DNA from: Candidatus Hydrogenedentes bacterium ADurb.Bin170
GTDB taxonomy: Bacteria; Hydrogenedentota; Hydrogenedentia; Hydrogenedentales; CAITNO01
Assembly: GCA_002070275.1 (NCBI GenBank)
Contig: MWCY01000031.1
Span: forward strand, 1 to 34,436
Direction of reading: 5' to 3'
DNA: 34,436 bases
The notes below the pieces were generated by a model, which saw nothing but the letters and a program-made list of their open reading frames with translations, did no database searches and had not been told where the DNA came from. This document shows, in pieces, positions 4,398 through 34,436 of the stretch (position 1 is the stretch's first letter; each line of letters begins with the position of its first letter). A program made the translations under genes and the position numbers.

Positions 4398-4421
4398 GTG
4401 ATAGAGAAAAGGAGTGTTGTT

Positions 4422-6206
4422 ATGATCAGACGCAATTTTTTCGTTATCGGTCTTCTGGTGAGTCTTTGTTTTGTCAGTGCTCAAGCAGAATACAGCGGTG
4501 GCACAGGTAAGAAGGCGGATCCCTATCTTATTGGCACGGTGCAGGACTGGCAGCAGCTTTGTGCCACGCAAATGCATTGGGCTTCACATTTTAAAGTGAT
4601 CAATGATCTGGACTTTTTCGGCGTTACCGTTGAGCCTCTCGGCTGGGCCTTCGAAGAAGGAAGCGTGTATTATCCCTATCAGTATTTCAGCGGAACGCTG
4701 GATGGTCAGGGGTATTCTTTTAAAAATATTGTGCTGGATTACCCGGAGTTCTCCAGGGTTGCGCTTTTTCACGAGCTGCGGGAAAGTACTGTTAGCAATC
4801 TTAAGATTGAAAATATCGTGGTGAAAGGCAGTTGCTCTGCGGCGGCTCTTGCCGCGACTCTGGCAGACAGCACTGTCAGCGGATGCAGTATTACCGGGAG
4901 TATCACGGCAGACAGCAGTGCTGCCGGTCTGGCGGTGTACTGCGAGTCCATTATTTTATCCGACTGTACTGCCGGGATCGCTGTGACAAGCGAGGGTGAT
5001 GATGCAGGGGGGCTGTTGTGCCGCGTGGGAGGAGGTCGGCTTGAAAATTGTGCGGTGGAAGGGAGTGTCCATTCGAAGAATGGCTTATGCGGCGGTATAG
5101 CGGCGTCCTGTGACTATGCATTTCTCGGATCCTGTACCGTTGATGCGGAGATTGGAAGCTTTAACTTGGATGCGGGCGGTCTTGCCGGTAATTTGCGTGA
5201 AAAGTGTGCTGTTCGGAATTGCCGTACCAGAGGAAAGGTTACAGCCCGGATAAACGGGGGCGGACTTGCCGGATTTATCGAGGGAAGCACGGTCTACGAA
5301 TCTTTTTCCGAGGCGGAAATTATCGTGGCAGGCACTGTTAAGGGAAGTGGCGTTGGCGGGCTTGCCGGCGGTGCCAGTGAGACAGATTTTTATGACTGTT
5401 ATGCCCGCGGTTCTTTGGCAGGGCGGGATTTGGGCGGAGGCCTGGCGGGGGACATGCGCGGGTTGCGACAGCTGCCCGAAGCGCAGAGTACTGTTGCGCG
5501 CTGCTATGCCACCTGTGATGTCACTGTGAAGGAAGGAGGTATTGCGGGCGGGCTTACGGCCAGGGCGGAGCGGATGGTCTGGGAATCTTCTTACTGGGAT
5601 CAGGAAAAAACCGGCATTGCTTTCAGTGTCGGAGGAGAGGGACGAGCCACGACGGACATGCTGTATCCCCATGCTGAAAACAGTTATGTCGGCTGGGATT
5701 TTGACGAGATCTGGCAGGCGGACAATGGTGAAGTGCAGCTCAATGACGGTTATCCCTGGCTGCGCAACACACCGCCCTTCGAAAAGAAGGAAGTCGTAGT
5801 GCCGGAAGGAGAAGAAGTGGCAGAAGGTGAGGAGTTGCCGGAGGGAGAGGAAGTGTCGGAAGGGGAAGAAATATTGGAAGGCGAAGTGAAGCCTTCGGAA
5901 GGTGAATTTAATCCTACTGAAGGTGAAACAGCCATCGAAGGCGAAGACGCAACTGAAGGTGAAATTCCTCCGTCGGAGGGAGAAATTCCGGGAGAAGGCG
6001 AATCCGTATTGGAAGGCGAAGAAATTTCAGAAGGAGAATTGGAGCCGGAAGGCGAGAATATCCTTCCTGATGATTCGCCTTTCGGATGCGGCTGCGGTAA
6101 GAAGAGTGTGCAGGGCCCGGTGAAAGACCTTCTGGGCGACTGGCTGCTCGTAGCACTGAGTCTGGGTGTACTGCTTTCCGGGAGTGTACTTGCCAAAAAA
6201 GACTGA
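4422..6206 (+). CDS. Secreted GLUG-repeat protein with EGE linker and C-terminal anchor
   Basis: A 594-residue exported protein. A Sec signal peptide (residues 1-22, hydrophobic core, cleavage after AQA) precedes YSGGTGKKADPYLI, a typical opening of GLUG-type surface proteins. About six repeats of roughly 35 residues, each starting near GGLAG, run through residues 195-400 and probably form a beta-solenoid. Residues about 460-548 are a low-complexity linker of EGE units. The C-terminus has a GCGCGK motif (555-560), a hydrophobic helix (about 574-590) and a final KKD. This three-part tail resembles MYXO-CTERM or GlyGly-CTERM sorting signals without being an obvious match. ATG 4422 is chosen over GTG 4398 because AAAAGGAG lies 7 bp upstream. 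It is probably a surface-attached carbohydrate-binding or adhesive protein of the same operon as GH88; function is inferred. Confidence 0.82.
   Translation: MIRRNFFVIGLLVSLCFVSAQAEYSGGTGKKADPYLIGTVQDWQQLCATQMHWASHFKVINDLDFFGVTVEPLGWAFEEGSVYYPYQYFSGTLDGQGYSFKNIVLDYPEFSRVALFHELRESTVSNLKIENIVVKGSCSAAALAATLADSTVSGCSITGSITADSSAAGLAVYCESIILSDCTAGIAVTSEGDDAGGLLCRVGGGRLENCAVEGSVHSKNGLCGGIAASCDYAFLGSCTVDAEIGSFNLDAGGLAGNLREKCAVRNCRTRGKVTARINGGGLAGFIEGSTVYESFSEAEIIVAGTVKGSGVGGLAGGASETDFYDCYARGSLAGRDLGGGLAGDMRGLRQLPEAQSTVARCYATCDVTVKEGGIAGGLTARAERMVWESSYWDQEKTGIAFSVGGEGRATTDMLYPHAENSYVGWDFDEIWQADNGEVQLNDGYPWLRNTPPFEKKEVVVPEGEEVAEGEELPEGEEVSEGEEILEGEVKPSEGEFNPTEGETAIEGEDATEGEIPPSEGEIPGEGESVLEGEEISEGELEPEGENILPDDSPFGCGCGKKSVQGPVKDLLGDWLLVALSLGVLLSGSVLAKKD
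5803..6064 (+). repeat. Degenerate EGE-coding microrepeat inside the surface protein
   Basis: The DNA repeats a short purine-rich unit of the form GAAGGNGAA with 2-6 codon spacing about fifteen times, encoding an acidic Glu-Gly-Glu linker. A similar but very short linker (SEGEGEPEDE) occurs in the large protein at the right end of the window. Confidence 0.8.
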
Positions 6207-6643: not shown

Positions 6644-6728
6644 AACATGCACCCTTTCATTTTCAGGAGATGCAGCATCTGCATCGCAAATGCCGCTGCT
6701 TTTCCGGCACCGGCAGGGAGCACTTTTC

Positions 6729-7673
6729 ATGAAAAGAATCTGCGGTTTTACTTTGATCGAACTGCTGGTGGTGATAGCCATCATCAGTATCCTGGCTGCC
6801 ATTCTCCTTCCGGCACTTTCCCGGGCACGGGAGGCGGCACGTCGCGCCAGCTGTCAGAACAATCTGAAACAGCTCGGGTTTGCCTGCAAATTGTATGCAG
6901 ACGAAAGCGGCGGAAATTTCTTCCCGCCCGTGAAGACATTGCATTGCACCGGAATACCCATTAGCGGGCTGTCGCCCATGATGGATATGGAGCGGGTTTA
7001 TCCGGAATACCTTAATGACTTTGCGATTACCCTCTGCCCGAGTTTTGCCTTTAAAGGCGACGCTGTCGCTCTTTGGGATCAGGGACTCAATCCCTCCAGC
7101 CACTGGCACCATGCCGAGGAAATGGGCTGGCTTCCGACAGCGGGCAACGGTGTCGTGGAGCCCTGCGAGGTCTATGACCATCCCTATATTTATTTCGGCT
7201 GGGCACTGAATCCGTCCGGTCTTGATACAGAAGATAAATTGCATCATTTTGAGCATGCGCTTCTGGAGGAACCGGAAGGGCTGGTTCACCGTCTGGAGCT
7301 GGATCCCCACCTTGCCCAGAGCGACTGGATGCTGGAGGAACGATGGAGCGACGACATGGCGGAACCTGTTGTTTACCGGTTGCGCGAGGGCATTGAACGA
7401 TTCCTGATTACGGACATCAACAATGCCGCTCAGGGTGCTCTGGCGCAATCATCGCTGCCTGTCCTGTGGGATGCGCTGTCCGGCGAGTCACCCGACCATT
7501 TCAATCATGTTCCGGGGGGCTGCAACGTGCTGTACATGGACGGGCATGCATCCTTTCTGCGTTATGTGCCTACCGGTTCTGATGCCTGCCGAAATACGGG
7601 CAGTGCTTTTCCTGTGAACGGCGGCGGCATCATACTGCACGAAGCGACGCACGGTCATGACCACCATCATTAA
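6729..7673 (+). CDS. DUF1559-like pseudopilin with His-rich C-terminal tail
   Basis: A 314-residue type II secretion/type IV pilin-like protein. The prepilin peptidase site is clear: after MKRICG the mature chain would begin FTLIE, with Glu at position +5 (residue 11) and a hydrophobic helix through residue 29. The region [19 protein letters not shown] is typical of the DUF1559 pseudopilins abundant in Planctomycetota, Lentisphaerota and Verrucomicrobiota. A C-terminal H-x10-DG motif (His260 to Asp271, YMDGH) resembles the H-x9-DG motif of that group, one residue longer. The chain ends in a [11 protein letters not shown] segment, a likely metal ligand cluster. AGGGAG lies 8 bp before the ATG. 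No assembly ATPase or secretin is nearby, as is usual for these orphan pseudopilins. Confidence 0.85.
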
Positions 7674-7843: not shown

Positions 7844-8587
7844 ATGTTTCGTTTGCTTTTAATTACATGCCTGTGTCTGGTTGTGCTTCCGGCTGCTGCT
7901 CAGGCGCCGGTATCCGGCGAGGTGGTCACGGCGGATACCCTTCCCGTCCTCCGAACCACCGACACCATTACGCTCATGATGATGATCGAGCAGGGCGGTG
8001 TCATTCTGTGGATCATTATGGGGCTGGGCTTTATTGCGCTTGTGCTGACGTTGTATCTTCTGGTGACGGTGAGTCCCCGCCGTGAGGCGCCCGCAACGCT
8101 GGTGAAGCGGGCTGTGGCGCAGGTGAAAGCGGGAGAGCTTCAGGGCGCATACCACATGTGTCTTGAGCGGGATGAATTTCTGGCGCGCGTTTTCGCCGCC
8201 GGTATCAAGATGGCGGGCCATGGCCGTTTTGTGATTCAGGATGCCATGGAAAGTGAAGGGGAACGCATGGCGGCGGCACTCTGGCAGCGGATCACCTATC
8301 TCAACAACATCGCCATGATTGCGCCGCTGCTGGGACTGCTGGGCACAGTCTGGGGCATGATGCGCGCCTTCAGTGCCATTGCGCTCGATACGGCACAGGT
8401 CAAGGGCATCACCATGGCATACAGCGTTTCCCAGGCGATGATCACCACGGCAGGCGGTCTGGCACTCGCAATTCCCGCCATGGCTGTTTATTTTCTGCTG
8501 CGGGGCAGGGTGCTGCGGATTATTGCGGAAGTGGAGGCGCGATCCGCAGAGCTCATCGAGGTACTTGCCGGGGAGAATAAAGAATGA
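7844..8587 (+). CDS. ExbB/TolQ/MotA-family proton channel protein
   Basis: This 247-residue inner-membrane protein is the stator-type subunit of an ExbB-ExbD or TolQ-TolR motor that converts proton motive force into movement of a partner protein. It has a cleavable signal (residues 1-20, ending AAAQA), a first membrane helix near 50-73, a cytoplasmic domain, and two conserved helices: the IAPLLGLLGTVWGMM segment, and AMITTAGGLALAIPAMAV. The long exported N-terminus is a feature of the ExbB subgroup of several non-proteobacterial phyla. AGGAGA lies 8 bp before ATG 7844. The stop overlaps the ExbD start by four bases (ATGA), indicating translational coupling. The next genes are TPR and VWA proteins rather than TonB or TolA, so the energised partner is not the classical one. 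Confidence 0.9.
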   Translation: MFRLLLITCLCLVVLPAAAQAPVSGEVVTADTLPVLRTTDTITLMMMIEQGGVILWIIMGLGFIALVLTLYLLVTVSPRREAPATLVKRAVAQVKAGELQGAYHMCLERDEFLARVFAAGIKMAGHGRFVIQDAMESEGERMAAALWQRITYLNNIAMIAPLLGLLGTVWGMMRAFSAIALDTAQVKGITMAYSVSQAMITTAGGLALAIPAMAVYFLLRGRVLRIIAEVEARSAELIEVLAGENKE

Positions 8588-9012
8588 AGATCCGTCATAA
8601 ATTCCAGGAAGAAACCGACACCATTCCCATGGCGCCGCTCATCGATATTGTTTTTCTTACCCTTATTTTCTTTATGGTGACTACGGTATACGCCACGCTG
8701 GAAAGCGAGGTGGATATTCTTCTGCCCACGGCAGATACGGCACAGCAGGGGGAGCGTGCCCAGGGAGAGATTTTTATCAACCTGCGTAAAGACGGCACCA
8801 TTGTGGTGAACGAGCGGGTCATGACGCTTGATATGCTGCAGCAGACGCTGAACCGTGTCGCCGCCTATTTTCCCGGGGGGGCTGTGATCATCCGGGGCGA
8901 CAGTGCCGCGGCATTGGGCAATGCCATCTCCATCCTGGACTGCTGCCGGAAAGCGGACATACAGAATGTGGCGTTTGCAGCACTGCCCGCTGAAGAAAAG
9001 GAGGCGCCATGA
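8584..9012 (+). CDS. ExbD/TolR-family motor subunit
   Basis: A 142-residue partner of the preceding ExbB protein. It has a short cytoplasmic N-terminus, one membrane helix with the conserved proton-carrying Asp in PLIDIVF (Asp21), and a periplasmic domain of about 100 residues including the KDGTIVVNE strand found in ExbD/TolR. Starts and stops overlap neighbours by four bases on both sides (8584-8587 and 9009-9012), so the gene is translationally coupled in a motor operon. The paralogue type (ExbD versus TolR) cannot be decided from sequence alone. Confidence 0.9.
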   Translation: MKIRHKFQEETDTIPMAPLIDIVFLTLIFFMVTTVYATLESEVDILLPTADTAQQGERAQGEIFINLRKDGTIVVNERVMTLDMLQQTLNRVAAYFPGGAVIIRGDSAAALGNAISILDCCRKADIQNVAFAALPAEEKEAP

Positions 9013-11381
9013 CCGGCATCGGTTTGCCTATCGTGATAAGGCGAAGTCTCCATGCCATGCTATTGCTTCTGATGGCGGCTTCCGGAGCCTTCGCCGCTTC
9101 TTCCGGAGAGCAGATGGACTTTGCCAACGGGCTGTTCCATCGCGGTTTTTATAAAGAAGCACTGGACGAATACAAAGCCTGGCTTGCGGCATCGCCGGAA
9201 AGTGACGATGCTTTTGCCGTGTGGCTCCGGATGGGACGGTGTGCGCTGGCACTGGACAATCGGGACGAGGCGGTGCACGCCTTTGATCAGGCGGCGCAGA
9301 TGGCGGAGAACGCCGCTGAACGCGCTGAAGCGCAGGCGAGTGCAGGTGAGGCACTGTTTTTTAAAGGTGATTATGCTGCTGCGTCCCAGCGGCTGGAAAA
9401 GTCGCTGGCTGATTCCCCGGCCGGAGAACTGCGGGCGCGCACACTTTTTTATCTGGGCAGAGCAAAGATGGAACGGGGCGAGCTTCTGGATGCGGCTTCC
9501 GCACTGAACAGTCTGATCAAAGAATTTCCTGAAAGCCCGCTCACCGCCTTTGCGCAGTATCATCTTGCTTTTGTGCATGTGAAACTGGGCAGTGCCGAAG
9601 AAGCGGCAAAGGCCTTTTCCGCTGTTGCCGGTGCGTCCGGTGCGGATGAATCGCTGCGTATGGAAAGCCGCTTCCGGGCGGCGGAGCTTTATGACAGTCT
9701 GGGCTGGACTGATACCGCGCTGGGCGCCTACGAAATGCTTCGCCGTGATTTTCCCGGTTCCTCCTATGGGCTCCGGGCGGACTACGGGTATGCCTGGGCA
9801 CTCTACCACAGCGGGCGGTATGAGGAGGCGCTGCAGGGCGCTTCGGCATTTCTGAAAGAACACAAAGACTCCGATCAGGCGGCGGGCATGTATTATCTGG
9901 AGGGCAACTGCCTGCAGCAGCTTCACCGCTATGAAGAAGCCCTGAAAAGTTATCAGCAGTTGGGCAGGGACTATCCGGGCACGTCGTTTGCCGTGCACGG
10001 TCTTTATAAAAGTGCGTGGGTGTTGTATGCCCTCGGGAATGTTCCTGCAGCACGGGAGACGGCACAGCGCTATCTCGAATCCGGAAATGACGGCTCTTTT
10101 ATCGGGGAAACACGCTATCTTCTGGGTATTCTGCATGTGAGCGAAGGGGACTTTGAGGAAGCGCTGGACGCTTTTCAAAAAGTGGTCAGTGAAGCGCCCG
10201 ACAGCACTTTTACGGCCGATGCCCTGTTCAAGATGGCGGAGTGTTATGCCCATCTGGGGCTTCGTGATGAATCGGCACGCCATTTCGAAGAGTTTGCCCG
10301 CCGGTACCCCGACAATCCGCTGACAGAGCAGGCTATCCTCCGCTCGGGCGATGCCCGCTTTACGGCACAGGATTTTGCGCAGGCTATTGAGAATTACAAA
10401 AAGCTGCTGGAAAACCCGAAAGACCCGGCACTGGAGGAAGAGGCGCTGTATCGGCTGGCTGTGACCTGTCACAATGCGGGGGCGTATGATGACAGTGCGG
10501 CGGCTTTTCACCGTCTTCTGGATAAATTCGGTGAAGGCCGCTTCGCCTGCGAAGCGGCGTTTCGCATAGCTGAGTATGAGCTGCACCAGCGTCAGGACCC
10601 GCTGAAGGCGCTGGAATCTTATGAGGCGGCATTGCGCCGCAATCCTGACCCGGACATGACCTTCAGGATTTTGCAGGGGCTTGCGTCGGCACGCTATGAG
10701 CAGAAGGACTTTGAGAAAGCGGGCGAACTGATTCTGCGGCTGGTTCGTGAATATCCGCAGTCATCGCTTCCGGATGAAAGTTATTTGTGGAGCGGGCAGT
10801 GGTTTGAAAAGGCAGGACGAAACGGAGAGGCAGCCGAAATATTTCAGGCGCTTTTAAAGGCTTATCCGGATCATAAAGAGAAGGCGGGCATTTCTTTTCT
10901 GCTGGCACAGTGCCTGGAAAAAGAGGGGAAAAACCAGGCGGCGGCGGAGCATTACAGGCTTGCGCTCACTGCGGGAATCGGCGAAGACCGGGAAGCGGAA
11001 GTGCTGCTGCGCCTCGGCGCACTGTACGAAAAGGAAGGAGACCGGAAGTCCGCCCGTGACATGTATGATCAGGCCGCTAATCTGGACAGCGGAGAGAGTG
11101 CAGCCCGGGCGCGCTTTCATCTGGCGGAGCTTTTCGAAGCGGACGGGCAGCTGGAAGAGGCGGCAAAAAACTATATGCGTCTTGCGATTCTGTTTGTCCA
11201 CAAGACCCTTTCGCCGGAATCTTTGTGGCGGGCGGGAAACTGCTATTTAAAAATGAAAAACACCGGGCAGGCGAAAAGTATTTTTGAGGAACTGCTTTCG
11301 GATTATCCCGATTCATCTTTTGCATCCGAAGCGCAGGCGCTGCTGGCATCGGATGCCTTCTCTGCAAAGGGATCAGAGTGA
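9009..11381 (+). CDS. Exported multi-TPR scaffold protein
   Basis: A 790-residue protein with a Sec signal peptide (residues 1-29, ending AFA). The remainder is almost entirely tetratricopeptide-like helical repeats of 34-38 residues. Many have the A-x-Y-x-x-G and F-P-x-S pattern seen in periplasmic TPR proteins such as YbgF (CpoB) and BamD. No catalytic motif was seen. By position it is translationally coupled to ExbD (ATGA) and to the VWA protein (GTGA). In Tol-Pal systems a TPR protein, YbgF, is encoded with TolQRA, so a periplasmic scaffold bridging the motor to envelope partners is likely. It is far longer than YbgF (about 260 residues). Function is inferred. Confidence 0.85.
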   Translation: MTGIGLPIVIRRSLHAMLLLLMAASGAFAASSGEQMDFANGLFHRGFYKEALDEYKAWLAASPESDDAFAVWLRMGRCALALDNRDEAVHAFDQAAQMAENAAERAEAQASAGEALFFKGDYAAASQRLEKSLADSPAGELRARTLFYLGRAKMERGELLDAASALNSLIKEFPESPLTAFAQYHLAFVHVKLGSAEEAAKAFSAVAGASGADESLRMESRFRAAELYDSLGWTDTALGAYEMLRRDFPGSSYGLRADYGYAWALYHSGRYEEALQGASAFLKEHKDSDQAAGMYYLEGNCLQQLHRYEEALKSYQQLGRDYPGTSFAVHGLYKSAWVLYALGNVPAARETAQRYLESGNDGSFIGETRYLLGILHVSEGDFEEALDAFQKVVSEAPDSTFTADALFKMAECYAHLGLRDESARHFEEFARRYPDNPLTEQAILRSGDARFTAQDFAQAIENYKKLLENPKDPALEEEALYRLAVTCHNAGAYDDSAAAFHRLLDKFGEGRFACEAAFRIAEYELHQRQDPLKALESYEAALRRNPDPDMTFRILQGLASARYEQKDFEKAGELILRLVREYPQSSLPDESYLWSGQWFEKAGRNGEAAEIFQALLKAYPDHKEKAGISFLLAQCLEKEGKNQAAAEHYRLALTAGIGEDREAEVLLRLGALYEKEGDRKSARDMYDQAANLDSGESAARARFHLAELFEADGQLEEAAKNYMRLAILFVHKTLSPESLWRAGNCYLKMKNTGQAKSIFEELLSDYPDSSFASEAQALLASDAFSAKGSE

Positions 11382-13153
11382 GCATGATAAGCCGGAGAAC
11401 CATACTGGCGTTGTCCATCATCAGTGCCCTGGTGCTGCAGGTGCTGTTTCTATGGATGGCACCGCTGATCACCATGCTGGAAAGCGACCGTCTCGTTGAT
11501 CGCATTCCGACACGCTTTCAGGTGGCCTATCTGGATCAGCCGCCGCCTGCACCGAGAAAATTCGTGCCCGGTCAGCAGCGCGCTTTGCCCCCGGGCAAAA
11601 TAGAATCTGTCGTCGGTGAAGAGCCGGGGCTGCTGCCTCTGGAGGACAGTGCTGCTGCGCCGCCGGTGGAAACGCCGAAGCTGACGGAACGGGTGGCCGG
11701 TAATCTGGAAGAGCGGAGCTACGATCTTGAGGCGGAGCCGGAGCGCATCAACAAAATGGATGCGAAGATTCTGGAGATTGCCCGTGAATCCGCCCGGCGG
11801 GATATAGATGTGGTGCGGCGGCTTGTGCGGCCGAGCCCGGAGGTGACTCTTTCCGCCTCCGATCTGCCTGCGCTGCGCAGTCCCGGCATCACGCCTGAAG
11901 CAATTTCTCTGGAGCCGGCGCGGCTGGGTGCGGGACTTCTGGCGCAGGTGATTCCGACCGGCGATGAAACCGTGGGCGGCGCAGGCAGCGGTGATGAAAA
12001 GCCGGATCAGGAGTCTGTCGCTTTTCAGGCTGCGGCAGACACGGTGGAAGTCCTGCCTGCCCTGGAAAAAAAGATTGCCGAGGCTCCGGTTCTCCGGGAA
12101 CGGGAGCAGCTGCGTGAAGAAACTCCCTTTGTTCTGCTGGATGATCTGGTGGAATTCCGGCTGGAGACCTATGTGGAATCGCCTGCAGTTCCTGGATATT
12201 TCCGCCTGAACATTTATCCGAAAAAAGGCAGTGCACTGGAAACGCTGCCCAAAGACCTGACGATCATTCTCGACGGGTCACGGAGCATGCAGCACAGAAA
12301 ATTGGAACTTGCCGCACGGGGCATTGCCGATGCGCTTTCCTTTCTCCGCCCGCAGGATCGCCTCAACATTTACATTTTCAGGGATACGGTTGTGCCCTTC
12401 CGGGAACAGTTTTTTCCTGCCACGCCGGAAAATATCGCCGCTGCCCAGCAGTATCTGAGAAGTCTGGAAGCGCAGGGTCAGACTGATTTTTACAACGCAC
12501 TGCAGATGCTGCCGGGGGTAGAATCCCGGCCGAACCAGCCCAGCATTGTCTTTGTGGTAAGTGACGGAAGACCGACGCTGGGTATTCAGGATGCACGGAC
12601 GATTATCAACAGCACAGCCAATGACAACGCCCTGCGCAAGAGTATTTTTACCTATGGCTCCGGCAACACGGTGGATACCTATCTGATGGCGCTGCTGGCA
12701 TATAGAAACAAGGGGGAAGCCTTTGTGTCTCCGCGCATACAGGATAGTCAGAATGATGTGAAAAGCTGGCTGCTCCGTCTGAATGATCCGCTGCTTGCCG
12801 ATCTCCGGGCAGACTTCGGCGGTATTATGGAAGAGGAAAGTTTTCCCCGGGCAGTGCCTGATTTTTTTAAGGACAAGCCCGTGGTACTGTATGGGCGTTA
12901 TACGCCGGGTGAAAAAGAGAGTTTTGCCCTTCGTATTACCGGAAAGGCGGGCGATAAAGAGAAGGAGATGATTTTCCGTGCCCGTTTCGCCGATGCAGCG
13001 ACGGGCGGCAGAGAGATTGCCCAGGGCTGGGCATTTGAAAAAGCCTATTATCTTATCGGGGAAATGTCACGGCGCGGCGAGTCGGCGGAAACGATCGGGG
13101 AGATCCGTGCCCTGTCGAGACAGTATGCCATCCGTACTATTTATGATGAATAG
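11378..13153 (+). CDS. Membrane-anchored VWA protein with TonB-like N-terminus
   Basis: This 591-residue protein starts with a single membrane helix (about 9-33), followed by a proline-rich stretch (DQPPPAPRK, 53-61) like the anchor and linker of TonB/TolA transducers. A long disordered spacer runs to about 250. A von Willebrand factor A domain (about 290-480) has a complete metal-binding MIDAS: DGSRS (299-303), Thr369 in GQTD, and Asp396 in VSDG. The C-terminal region (about 485-591) ends in ALSRQYAIRTIYDE, like the tail of VIT/VWA proteins. There is no TonB C-terminal domain. It begins at a GTG overlapping the TPR stop; ATG 11384 is an alternative start. In context it could be the protein moved by the ExbB/ExbD motor. 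Confidence 0.82.
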   Translation: MSMISRRTILALSIISALVLQVLFLWMAPLITMLESDRLVDRIPTRFQVAYLDQPPPAPRKFVPGQQRALPPGKIESVVGEEPGLLPLEDSAAAPPVETPKLTERVAGNLEERSYDLEAEPERINKMDAKILEIARESARRDIDVVRRLVRPSPEVTLSASDLPALRSPGITPEAISLEPARLGAGLLAQVIPTGDETVGGAGSGDEKPDQESVAFQAAADTVEVLPALEKKIAEAPVLREREQLREETPFVLLDDLVEFRLETYVESPAVPGYFRLNIYPKKGSALETLPKDLTIILDGSRSMQHRKLELAARGIADALSFLRPQDRLNIYIFRDTVVPFREQFFPATPENIAAAQQYLRSLEAQGQTDFYNALQMLPGVESRPNQPSIVFVVSDGRPTLGIQDARTIINSTANDNALRKSIFTYGSGNTVDTYLMALLAYRNKGEAFVSPRIQDSQNDVKSWLLRLNDPLLADLRADFGGIMEEESFPRAVPDFFKDKPVVLYGRYTPGEKESFALRITGKAGDKEKEMIFRARFADAATGGREIAQGWAFEKAYYLIGEMSRRGESAETIGEIRALSRQYAIRTIYDE

Positions 13154-30455: not shown

Positions 30456-33400
30456 TCAGAACTTGATCTCGACATAAGTATCTTTGTCGATATCCTCCAC
30501 TTTCCATTCCTTCGGCCAGTCAGCCTCGAAATCCAAGAAGCCATCATCGTCCGCATCGTCCCCGATTCGAAGGATGAGGTCAGGTCCGTAGGCCTGCAAC
30601 GAAAATTCTCCCAATTCGTCGGTAATCGCGCGGATTCCCCAACTACGATTGTGAATCTGCACCACCTTTCCGACAGCCGGAGTGCCGTTAACTGTAACTT
30701 TGCCGCTGATTGTATGGGCAGTAAACTGCTGATCAGCCATATAAAGGAAGCGGACCTGCGAGCCATCTGCGCTTCGGTTGAATTCGATCTCAACAACACC
30801 CACACCGGCAGCAACGATGAAATAGCCAGTTCCAGCCCAGTATTGTGAGGAATTTGTCGAGTCATCGATGTTCACCCGCACACAATCCTGAAATTCGATT
30901 CCACCCACGACTGCGGTGCCAAGCAGTTCCACAGAATATGATTTATTTATCCACGTCCATGTATCGCCTGACACAAAGGTCTGTGGTAATGTGAAATGCA
31001 TGAAAAACTGGCCTTGATTTGTGACAGGAGCACCGGAGTTCATGAGAGTCAACAAATATCCATCAAATGTATAGTCAATGTGTCCACCGAGCGAGTTGCC
31101 CAACCAGGTCGATCCCTCGGCGTTGAGCGTAACCACAAAATCCTTATCTTCGTTCGTTTTTTGAAACACAGCCCAGGCGTAATCATCGAATTTACCGCCT
31201 TGACTGTCCGTCACATGGTACCGGATTCCATGGCCTTCAGTTGTGATAAAAAATTCATCCGCCCGTCTCTCAGCTGGTCCTGATGAAAGAATCACATCAA
31301 CTGCTTTTCCCCGGCTTGTCGAGGCACCATGAACGGGAGTCTGAGAAATCACCGTTCCGGCGGGGTAGGAAAGGTTCTCTTGTGTTCCGATTGTTCGCAG
31401 AAGAAGCTCAGGAGTTGCCAAAGCACCTACGCACTCCACCTCTGTTAACCCAATAAGATTAGGTACTGTAACAGACGCTCTTTGCGTCGGTGGTAGTTGA
31501 TATATCTCCCATTGCGTTTCCAAGCTCTCAACATGGCCCGTATAATCCTGAGCTGACATTGTCTGAAGATTTGAGTAGTTACCGCTTACGAACTGAAAAT
31601 CTGGTTCGTATGCAGTGATTGCACCAAGCATATCATTTGTTGCGCCGTAGTCCAGATTGGTAAAAGGCTTTTCGAGAGGATCAAAGCAGTAGCCGTTGCA
31701 GTTTTGGCCGCTGGCTAGAAATCCCGCAGAGGAGCGGTAAATTAAGGGATAAGCCACGCGACCATGAATGGTCCAGAGGGGTCCGTGCAGGCAGGCACCA
31801 TCTGACGGTCTGTACAATCCATTACTAAGTGTTCTGGCCTCCGTAGGAGTATAGACACCCGCTATCACATGTCCGCCACGATCCGTCGTATCCCACCAGT
31901 TCGTGATCCACACGTCCCAGTCGGGGGCTGCAACCAACTGCATAGCGGCACCGACATTACACGCCTCAACGAAGCAATTCCCGACACCGGATAGCCATTT
32001 GTCATCGAGGTTGGGGAGCCACATGCGGTAATACTCGCCGTACACCCAGTCATTATCCTCGCGCTTGAACCAGTCCCGATACCTGTCACTGATAGCCATA
32101 AAAGCCTTTGTCAGGCCACTTCCCACCTGTTCCTTCGCTTCTGCGGCAAGAATGGCAGCCAGCGGAGAGAGTCTGTTGCCAAGTTCCGTAACTGCCATAT
32201 TCAAAGCAACTATTTCCTGAGGAATGTCCGTATAGGTATCGGCACATTCCACGAAGCGCTCCGGGAACAGGCTTCTGGAAAAAGTCCGCACCGGTGCTGC
32301 ACGCCAGCCCCATTGATTTCCTAGCCGGCTCGCAAAGAAAGCGGCCCAGTGTTTATCCATATCCGAATCCAGCTGGGTCCCTTCGGTCAATGCATCCAAA
32401 ACCGCCAGTTCCAGACTGTTGAGTGCGGGTTCAGCATCCGACATGCAATAGGCTTCGACCGCGTTTCTCAAACCCGCGTTGACTCCTGTGTCGTCGCGTC
32501 CCATCAGCGGATACCAGACTGCGTCTTGATTCATGACCAGGACAAATTTCCCCTGGATATCTATTTTGCCGGCCTGCGTTGCTACCAACGGATCATATAA
32601 TTGTGCGCCCGAGCCGTTGCTCTCGATAACATACCCAAAACCCGCATCCGACACTGCGAGATAGACTGATTTTCCCTGTGTCCGCAATTGGAAGTACAGC
32701 GCCTCAGCCAGAGTGAGATTAGGCGTTGTCCAGCCTATACCCTTGATCCCATTCCAGAGCAGAGGCAAGCGCAAGTCCAGCCAGCCATGAAATGGAGCAT
32801 TCTCGGGCAGTGAATCTGCGTAGGAGACCGCATTGTGACGATGATGGGCCCACTTGAAATCAGACCAGGAAAAAGCACTGCCTTCTTTATTGTCAAAACG
32901 GAAACCATCATTTATGGATGAAGCCACCTGATCCCAATACGATTCATCGTCTACCCGGTCGCGATGAAGGTATTCCGCAGCCCAACCATCGTAAACGGTC
33001 GCGATCTTTTCAAGCCAGACCGCATCGGCCTGCAGATAGACTTCCGGGTGTTTCACCAGCAAGGAACGTGATGAGTATATCCCCATCTTCGCAAGTTTAT
33101 TCTCTACGGATGAGGCTGCCAGATCCAGCCAAGCAGCATTGTGAATTAAACTCGCTTCATCCTCTGGCTCTCCTTCGCCTTCAGACGAGGAAACCAACTT
33201 GATCTCGACATAAGTATCTTTGTCGATATCCTCCACTTTCCATTCCTTCGGCCAGTCAGCCTCGAAATCCAAGAAGCCATCATCGTCCGCATCGTCCCCG
33301 ATTCGAAGGATGAGGTCAGGTCCGTAGGCCTGCAATGAAAATTTTCCCGATTCGTCGGTAATTGCGCGGGTTCCCCAACGATAATTGTGGATCTGGACTA

Positions 33401-34331
33401 CTTTTCCGACAGCCGGAGTGCCGTTAACTGTAACTTTGCCGCTGATTGCATGGGAAGGAAACTGCTGATCGGCCATATAAAGAAAGCGGACCTGCGAGCC
33501 ATCTGCACTTCGGTTGAATTCGATCTCAACAATACCTACACCGGCAGCAACGATGAAATAGCCAGTTCCAGCCCAGAGCTGTGAGGAATTTGTCGAGTCA
33601 TCAATGTTCACCCGCACGCAATCCTGAAATTCGATTCCACCCACGGCTGTGGCGCCAAGCAGTTCCACAGAATATGATTTATTTGTCCACATCCATGTAT
33701 CGCCCGACACAAAGGTCTGCGGTAATGAGAAATTCATGAAAAAATGACCCTGATTCCTGGAAGGAGCACCCCAGTTGATGCAGGTAAGAAACTGTCCGTC
33801 ATATGGGTTCGGACGGGCAATGTATCCACCGAGCGAGTTATTCCACGAGAGCGGCTCTTCGGCGTTGAGGGTGAGCACAAAATCATGATTTTCGTTCGTT
33901 TTTTGAAACACAGCCCAGGCATAATCATCGAATTTATTGCCTTGACTATCCGTAACATGGTACCGGACTCCATGGCCCTCGGTTGTGATAAAGAATTCAT
34001 CTGCCCGTCTTTCGGGCGGTGGCAGTATCCAGCACAGTGGCGGCTCCAAAGAACCGTTGTAGGCATACCTCTCCCCATTTCGCTGCAAATACGCCGCGCG
34101 GATAGCGTAGGACATGAGACAGCTATCCTGCTGCCAGCATTTCAGATATGCATTGGCCTCGCCCATCGTTATCCGGCCATCGCCATTGACATCCGCAGGA
34201 TGCGCGACGAACTTCGGGTTTCCCTTCTCACACACTTCCGCCTGTATCGTCACCGGGCTCAACAGTACCATCGCCATCAGTCCCGCCAACGCCATACATC
34301 CTGTCACCCAACGCGCCAATACTTTTTGCAT
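30456..34331 (-). CDS. Large secreted multidomain protein with duplicated flanking modules
   Basis: A 1291-residue exported protein. A Sec signal (residues 1-31) is followed by a dockerin-like EF-hand, DVNGDGRITMGEA (Asp47 to Glu58). Module A (about 106-378) and module B (about 1020-1291) are nearly identical, each starting ERRADEFFITTEGHG, containing FVSGDTW, a GKVTVNGTPAVGKVV segment, a carboxypeptidase-regulatory-like fold, and ending with DDADDDGFLDFEADW. Between them lie a SEGEGEPEDE linker, a helical region and a domain with GNC (Cys786) and GGHVIAGVY (His821), which could be a transglutaminase- or papain-like site. A PASTA domain (about 951-1015, TVPNLIGLT to DVILSSGP) follows. ATG 34331 gives a proper signal peptide although no strong ribosome site is visible. 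A role in extracellular binding or peptide/amide chemistry is inferred. Confidence 0.8.
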   Translation of the reverse strand: MQKVLARWVTGCMALAGLMAMVLLSPVTIQAEVCEKGNPKFVAHPADVNGDGRITMGEANAYLKCWQQDSCLMSYAIRAAYLQRNGERYAYNGSLEPPLCWILPPPERRADEFFITTEGHGVRYHVTDSQGNKFDDYAWAVFQKTNENHDFVLTLNAEEPLSWNNSLGGYIARPNPYDGQFLTCINWGAPSRNQGHFFMNFSLPQTFVSGDTWMWTNKSYSVELLGATAVGGIEFQDCVRVNIDDSTNSSQLWAGTGYFIVAAGVGIVEIEFNRSADGSQVRFLYMADQQFPSHAISGKVTVNGTPAVGKVVQIHNYRWGTRAITDESGKFSLQAYGPDLILRIGDDADDDGFLDFEADWPKEWKVEDIDKDTYVEIKLVSSSEGEGEPEDEASLIHNAAWLDLAASSVENKLAKMGIYSSRSLLVKHPEVYLQADAVWLEKIATVYDGWAAEYLHRDRVDDESYWDQVASSINDGFRFDNKEGSAFSWSDFKWAHHRHNAVSYADSLPENAPFHGWLDLRLPLLWNGIKGIGWTTPNLTLAEALYFQLRTQGKSVYLAVSDAGFGYVIESNGSGAQLYDPLVATQAGKIDIQGKFVLVMNQDAVWYPLMGRDDTGVNAGLRNAVEAYCMSDAEPALNSLELAVLDALTEGTQLDSDMDKHWAAFFASRLGNQWGWRAAPVRTFSRSLFPERFVECADTYTDIPQEIVALNMAVTELGNRLSPLAAILAAEAKEQVGSGLTKAFMAISDRYRDWFKREDNDWVYGEYYRMWLPNLDDKWLSGVGNCFVEACNVGAAMQLVAAPDWDVWITNWWDTTDRGGHVIAGVYTPTEARTLSNGLYRPSDGACLHGPLWTIHGRVAYPLIYRSSAGFLASGQNCNGYCFDPLEKPFTNLDYGATNDMLGAITAYEPDFQFVSGNYSNLQTMSAQDYTGHVESLETQWEIYQLPPTQRASVTVPNLIGLTEVECVGALATPELLLRTIGTQENLSYPAGTVISQTPVHGASTSRGKAVDVILSSGPAERRADEFFITTEGHGIRYHVTDSQGGKFDDYAWAVFQKTNEDKDFVVTLNAEGSTWLGNSLGGHIDYTFDGYLLTLMNSGAPVTNQGQFFMHFTLPQTFVSGDTWTWINKSYSVELLGTAVVGGIEFQDCVRVNIDDSTNSSQYWAGTGYFIVAAGVGVVEIEFNRSADGSQVRFLYMADQQFTAHTISGKVTVNGTPAVGKVVQIHNRSWGIRAITDELGEFSLQAYGPDLILRIGDDADDDGFLDFEADWPKEWKVEDIDKDTYVEIKF
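30461..31272. repeat. Long direct repeat, copy 1 (encodes C-terminal module B)
   Basis: About 812 bp nearly identical to 33197-34014, with scattered substitutions and small indels confined mainly to the middle. Several runs longer than 100 bp are the same in both copies. The copies are 2.7 kb apart in the same orientation inside one gene. Confidence 0.92.
33197..34014. repeat. Long direct repeat, copy 2 (encodes N-terminal module A)
   Basis: About 818 bp pairing with 30461-31272. Differences cluster where the encoded sequence around residues 160-190 varies, while the ends are nearly unchanged, pointing to recent duplication or ongoing gene conversion. Confidence 0.92.
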
Positions 34332-34379
34332 CGGTAACGTACCATAGTTTCTGTAAATTAATTGGACAAACGGGGTCAT

Positions 34380-34401
34380 CGTTTGGTTCACTCTTGGTGA
34401 A
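34380..34401. other. Inverted repeat upstream of the large secreted gene
   Basis: GTTCAC and GTGAAC (in GGTTCACTCTTGGTGAAC) form a 6-bp dyad with a TCTTG loop, next to a run of seven A residues on the plus strand. It lies about 55 bp before the gene start on the minus strand and might be an operator; its orientation does not suit a terminator. Confidence 0.3.
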
Positions 34402-34436
34402 CACAAAAAAACGGCCTATGAGCCTAACCAAAAGGA

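Follow-up and report, generated by a model that had tools for sequence, protein, structure and literature searches.

Our analysis indicates that a four-gene cluster in a Hydrogenedentota MAG very probably specifies a trans-envelope motor of the ExbBD/TolQR class, powered by protons, in which a VWA protein serves as the force transducer. The initial annotation of this DNA had proposed that the motor acts on a VWA protein and not on a TonB or TolA C-terminus, and that proposal is well supported by a TonB/TolA-type helix in the VWA protein, by co-evolution, by conservation in two phyla and by the lack of a TonB_C domain. In the mechanism that we envisage, proton flow through ExbB5–ExbD2 would move or tense the docked VWA helix, the linker of the VWA protein (residues 30–225) would transmit the force across the periplasm, and its ITIH/integrin-like head would grip a ligand through the MIDAS metal at the peptidoglycan or the outer membrane; the TPR protein of the periplasm would act as a partner or adaptor. 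We consider it probable, with less assurance than for the motor itself, that this envelope machine is nearly fixed in Hydrogenedentota, stands apart from Tol and Ton, and has had its docking contact rewired from a His–Ser pair (VWA residue 19 and ExbB residue 62) to Tyr with Gly-Phe (ExbB residues 62–63), so that a His regarded as "essential" would be replaceable.

Gene content and conservation of the motor locus

The window, that is the whole stretch of 34,436 nucleotides that was analyzed, carries all four ORFs where the initial annotation had placed them, and Pfam recovers the domains that it had named; these genes and all features described below within them lie on the + strand. They encode an ExbB/TolQ-type motor subunit (7844..8587; 247 aa; PF01618 MotA_ExbB, E 1e-27), an ExbD/TolR-type motor subunit (8584..9012; 142 aa; PF02472 ExbD, E 1.9e-23), a TPR protein without lipobox that is predicted to be secreted to the periplasm (9009..11381; 790 aa; TPR families across most of its length) and the VWA protein, the putative force transducer (11384..13153; 589 aa from the ATG; PF13519 VWA_2, E 1.9e-11). 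Full-length homologues and the conserved gene order ruled out chance or mis-called ORFs.

A four-base overlap had been reported for each junction. It was found at the first two (8584–8587 and 9009–9012) and is doubtful at the third (11378–11381), where it depends on an alternative, possible GTG start at 11378 that would give a VWA ORF of 591 aa (11378–13153). The VWA gene likely starts at 11384, since relatives start at the homologue of this ATG and the TPR–VWA junction of the sister genome is a gap of +2. The ExbB–ExbD junction is a 4-base overlap in nearly all relatives, and in most of them the other two junctions range from about −35 to +46 bases, so the system is not characterized by overlaps of exactly four bases.

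The first two gene products had been described as a proton-driven motor pair, and their proton-path residues are indeed intact. Asp21 of ExbD, the proton carrier (8644..8646), is conserved in 58/58 relatives, and both Thr168 and Thr202 of ExbB (proton path, pore) in 57/57. By profile search, every locus with ExbD has exactly one such gene. The TPR proteins of relatives carry Sec signal peptides, and in the TPR proteins no convincing lipobox, no C-terminal TM helix and no retained helix to dock were found.

The VWA protein follows the plan of TonB and TolA, with an N-terminal TM helix, a mostly disordered linker and a globular head that AlphaFold models with confidence. The TM helix comprises residues 4–28 (11393..11467; AlphaFold model, and the SxxxH motif in relatives), with Ala and Gln at docking positions 15 and 19 of the window protein. 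The linker (residues 30–225) has low pLDDT and contains Phe45-x-Val47 (11516..11524), a possible motor box that falls in conserved columns and forms no strand in the AlphaFold model, as well as a conserved helix at residues 119–140 (11738..11803) seen in both alignment and model. The ITIH/integrin-like head (12140..13150) matches the ITIH1 heavy chain structure 6fpy (Z 26.4, rmsd 3.6, 326 residues, 19% identity), and the BatB structure 3ibs is also among its fold matches (Z 19.3). Its MIDAS residues, Asp297, Ser299, Ser301, Thr367 and Asp394, are conserved in 73–74 of 74 sequences. The role in adhesion first suggested for this domain is not supported, as the inner-membrane anchor is expected to keep the head within the periplasm.

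We searched Hydrogenedentota and 384 Omnitrophota genomes in depth, using an alignment as query; a single-sequence query had returned 0 matches against the genome contigs. A profile of the VWA protein identified the transducer in 60/68 Hydrogenedentota genomes and in 37 of the 38 high-quality ones. Raw profile matches amounted to 62/68, and the count leaves out two genomes (G033 and G050) that have only other VWA proteins; the genomes without the transducer are mostly incomplete. Wherever fetched Hydrogenedentota loci had enough sequence, ExbB, ExbD and TPR genes were present upstream of VWA in unchanged order across families. The same ExbB–ExbD–TPR–VWA order occurs in Omnitrophota, where the distribution is patchy (46 of the 384 sampled genomes matched, about 40 of these strongly). 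A tree of VWA heads separates the two phyla into groups with full support, which is evidence against a recent transfer. Judged from these sequences, chance falls far short of explaining the gene order, and this order is not confined to close relatives, as the initial annotation had allowed it might be.

Several side observations accompany these searches. Two MAGs titled Nitrospiraceae and Rhodothermaeota (loci L086 and L136) bear Hydrogenedentota-type clusters, and their titles are probably wrong. The VWA genes of L043, L062 and L123 have apparent frameshifts, which are either assembly errors or pseudogenes. A plasmid search gave only 25–30% matches to VWA heads, many of them annotated as marine sortase target proteins. 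Elsewhere in the window, a GLUG-repeat protein (4398–6206) combines a repeat tail rich in EGE with a GCGC-plus-TM segment at its C-terminus that resembles a sorting signal of the MYXO-CTERM type; EGE repeats of a similar kind occur at L181:1992-4043. DUF1559 type IV pilin-like proteins are encoded at 6690–7673, upstream of the motor cluster, and at L181:5654-6661, beside tolB. The − strand encodes, at 30456–34406, a protein of 1316 aa that has PASTA and carboxypeptidase-regulatory-like domains.

Proposed docking of the VWA helix on ExbB

All 20 intact Omnitrophota VWA helices (20/20) contain the SxxxH motif, whose S and H are residues 15 and 19. At the docking-His position of the Hydrogenedentota proteins (n = 32) we counted 19 Tyr, 12 His and 1 Gln, the last belonging to the window protein, in which Ala15/Gln19 replace Ser/His while its own ExbB retains Gly62-Phe63.

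Co-evolution was assessed with the likelihood test of Pagel's model on a quick tree built from the VWA head only, with residue 19 scored as His or not. When this residue was compared with 310 variable ExbB/ExbD columns, the top two places went to ExbB 62 and ExbB 63, in that order (LR 24.6 and 23.1), against a median of 3.8 and a 95th percentile of 11.9 over all 310 columns. With 4 degrees of freedom, an LR of 24.6 corresponds to an approximate p of ~6e-5 before correction for 310 columns. When the scan was reversed and ExbB 62 was compared with 206 VWA columns, residues 19 and 15 took the first and second ranks (LR 24.7 and 14.9). His19 goes with ExbB Ser62 in 16/16 Omnitrophota and 13/17 Hydrogenedentota, and Tyr19 goes with Gly62 (22/23) and Phe63 (23/23). 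Switches between His and Tyr at residue 19 make up about 6–8 events on the tree (at least 8 changes needed). Plain mutual information likewise placed ExbB 62 and 63 ahead of the other ExbB columns, and a simple shared-branch count ranked them 9 and 23 of 358. An independent-pair test had too few pairs and low power; the model-based likelihood test was run after this test and the shared-branch count.

The scan was blind to the known TolA–TolQ contacts. In a profile alignment, ExbB residues 62–63 (Gly-Phe; 8027..8032), in TM1, align with Ser28/Ile29 of E. coli TolQ. TonB and TolA dock through a Ser-x3-His of their TM helix, and cryo-EM shows that His22 of TolA contacts Ser28, Trp32 and Ile29 of TolQ (PMC12215075). 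TolQ I29 is moreover a suppressor site for mutants in the SHLS helix of TolA (PMC8928145). Since reciprocal co-evolution and the alignment both match this contact site, our results indirectly support docking of the VWA helix on TM1 of ExbB where TolA docks on TolQ, as far as sequence comparison can indicate.

Ton and Tol components, gene neighborhood and candidate functions

TonB_C (PF03544) is absent from the VWA protein and, at a cutoff of E 0.1, from its own genome. Across the phylum, 0 TonB_C matches lie on any cluster contig, so the TonB or TolA gene that the initial annotation had thought might sit beside orthologous clusters was not seen there. No receptor plug domain was found in the own genome, and 51/68 genomes of the phylum show none. 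Within the motor cluster there is no tolA, tolB or pal. The own genome has TolB on contig C12 and two OmpA/Pal-type domains on C46 and C16, with no TolA adjoining TolB, and a check on Tol-Pal co-occurrence found TolB_N in 60/68 Hydrogenedentota genomes, the own genome included. Given TolB_N in so many genomes and the two OmpA/Pal-type domains, the VWA machine would operate beside Tol-Pal rather than replace it. The only other motor of the own genome, on contig C29 (L072:3506-5489, G000:C29), adjoins argB/argJ and has its own ExbB/ExbD pair and a partner, P0001, a protein of 300 aa with an SLLFH TonB/TolA-type helix and a TonB_C-like end not recognized by Pfam.

Clustering of conserved neighbors was dominated by antisense artefacts, and we retained families on the same strand only. 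Families f4 and f5 of Hydrogenedentota include 9 loci with murC-ftsQ-ftsZ directly upstream of ExbB on the same strand (L040, L041, L046, L052, L056, L057, L067, L070 and L095). A pilT gene (PilT-like ATPase) joins murC-ftsQ-ftsZ in some loci, and L136 has pilT only. Directly downstream of VWA, 34 loci have a GHMP/galactokinase-like kinase, 43 loci having at least 1500 bases downstream; examples are L034:7149-8840, L058:12056-13717 and L061:11847-13562, and the overlap with VWA is sometimes 4 bases. The window carries a CoA-transferase gene where most Hydrogenedentota carry this kinase. Seven Omnitrophota loci have a TadA-like deaminase just downstream of the motor cluster, and in four (L117, L119, L123 and L130) a MoxR-DUF58-BatD set follows the cluster.

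These data weakly support envelope maintenance or division as the likeliest among several functions. The proximity of murC-ftsQ-ftsZ hints at division or envelope constriction, although one ancestral event may account for it. A motor for cell division or envelope constriction that works alongside Tol-Pal, which would be a sub-case of the force-transducer explanation, is possible but rather doubtful: it agrees with the near-universal presence of the cluster in Hydrogenedentota and with the wide occurrence of TolB_N, but murC-ftsQ-ftsZ is absent from the window and from most other families, the upstream sequence is enough to judge in only about half of the loci, and the neighbors differ in Omnitrophota.

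A gliding or adhesion machine like Myxococcus Agl-Glt with its VWA adhesin CglB, in which the motor would drive surface movement, was raised as a possibility in 2025 (PMC12204202), and the motor, the TPR protein and the VWA protein with its integrin-like fold and intact MIDAS do resemble that parts list. We consider this unlikely. Agl-Glt also links a proton motor to a VWA protein, but CglB is a surface adhesin and not a membrane-helix transducer, whereas the head described here has its anchor in the inner membrane; nothing in the cluster resembled a Glt-like outer-membrane platform, and near-universal presence in a phylum suits housekeeping better than motility.

Envelope VWA and TPR proteins are also combined in Bat (aerotolerance) operons, whose BatB provides the 3ibs fold match. 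Bat operons have MoxR/DUF58 in place of ExbB/ExbD. By this analogy, and in view of the MoxR-DUF58-BatD set near four Omnitrophota clusters and of P0001 in the own genome, the VWA protein might be an accessory, such as a metal-dependent chaperone or sensor like Bat/YfbK, with the motor driving either the TPR protein or a TonB/TolA from another locus; this is the least probable reading, as P0001 lies on another contig with its own ExbB/ExbD pair, cluster contigs lack TonB_C, the TPR protein has a predicted secreted form with no retained helix for docking, and reciprocal co-evolution singles out the VWA helix.

Relation to known motor systems

In 2025, Williams-Jones et al. (Mol Biol Evol, PMC12204202) predicted a family of vWA force transducers accompanied by a TPR gene and modeled them with AlphaFold 3. 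In that work, a tolR-like gene pair is often found in PVC bacteria near tolQ-like and TPR genes, the His is essential, the docking motif occurs in "many" vWA force transducers and not in all, and the phyla named are Proteobacteria, Planctomycetes, Verrucomicrobia, Bacteroidetes and Rhodothermaota. The cluster is thus not categorically new, because transducers of the same plan had been predicted, and the statement in the initial annotation that no characterized system of this kind was known holds for experiments and not for predictions. Our cluster shares with the Tichowtungia type of these transducers the TM docking motif (at the family level), a disordered linker, a vWA head and tolQ/tolR-like and TPR neighbors. 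It differs in having one ExbD, in the order ExbB–ExbD–TPR–VWA, and in the docking position, where Tyr frequently takes the place of His (Gln does so in the window) alongside matching changes in ExbB. In a second family of the same paper, TPH-vWA, the vWA protein replaces ExbD, carries the membrane Asp in its own helix and has no ExbD gene; here, the cluster does have an ExbD gene, and residues 4–28 of the VWA protein contain no Asp.

The motor family and the docking face of the transducer helix are common to ExbB–ExbD–TonB, but here the head is VWA and not TonB_C, and the own genome has no TonB-dependent receptor. With TolQ–TolR–TolA (TolB, Pal, CpoB) the cluster shares the motor family, a TPR protein and the correspondence of ExbB 62/63 to TolQ Ser28/Ile29; it differs in having no TolA C-terminal domain, TolB or Pal, of which TolB and Pal-type proteins occur elsewhere in the genome. 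In Vibrio TonB2–TtpC systems, ExbB–ExbD motors have extra partner proteins (PMC6957404); there TonB is kept as the transducer, with no VWA. ITIH1 (6fpy) shares the head fold, VWA and the following domain, but is a secreted animal protein without a motor.

Neither Hydrogenedentota nor Omnitrophota is mentioned in the text of PMC12204202, and our literature search found no text joining either phylum with ExbB plus VWA. New with respect to the 2025 prediction are the two phyla, the single-ExbD layout, the near-fixation within one phylum, the exchange of His for Tyr together with compensating residues in ExbB, and the evidence for docking from co-evolution.

TonB and TolA are the textbook loads of ExbB/ExbD-class proton motors. 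Should the VWA head prove to be a third type of tip, the motor would be a general pulling device, and a machine nearly universal in a whole phylum would have gone unstudied. The co-evolving pairs make it possible to test the 2025 prediction directly by mutation, and likewise the role of the docking His, since nature itself substitutes Tyr or Gln at this position.
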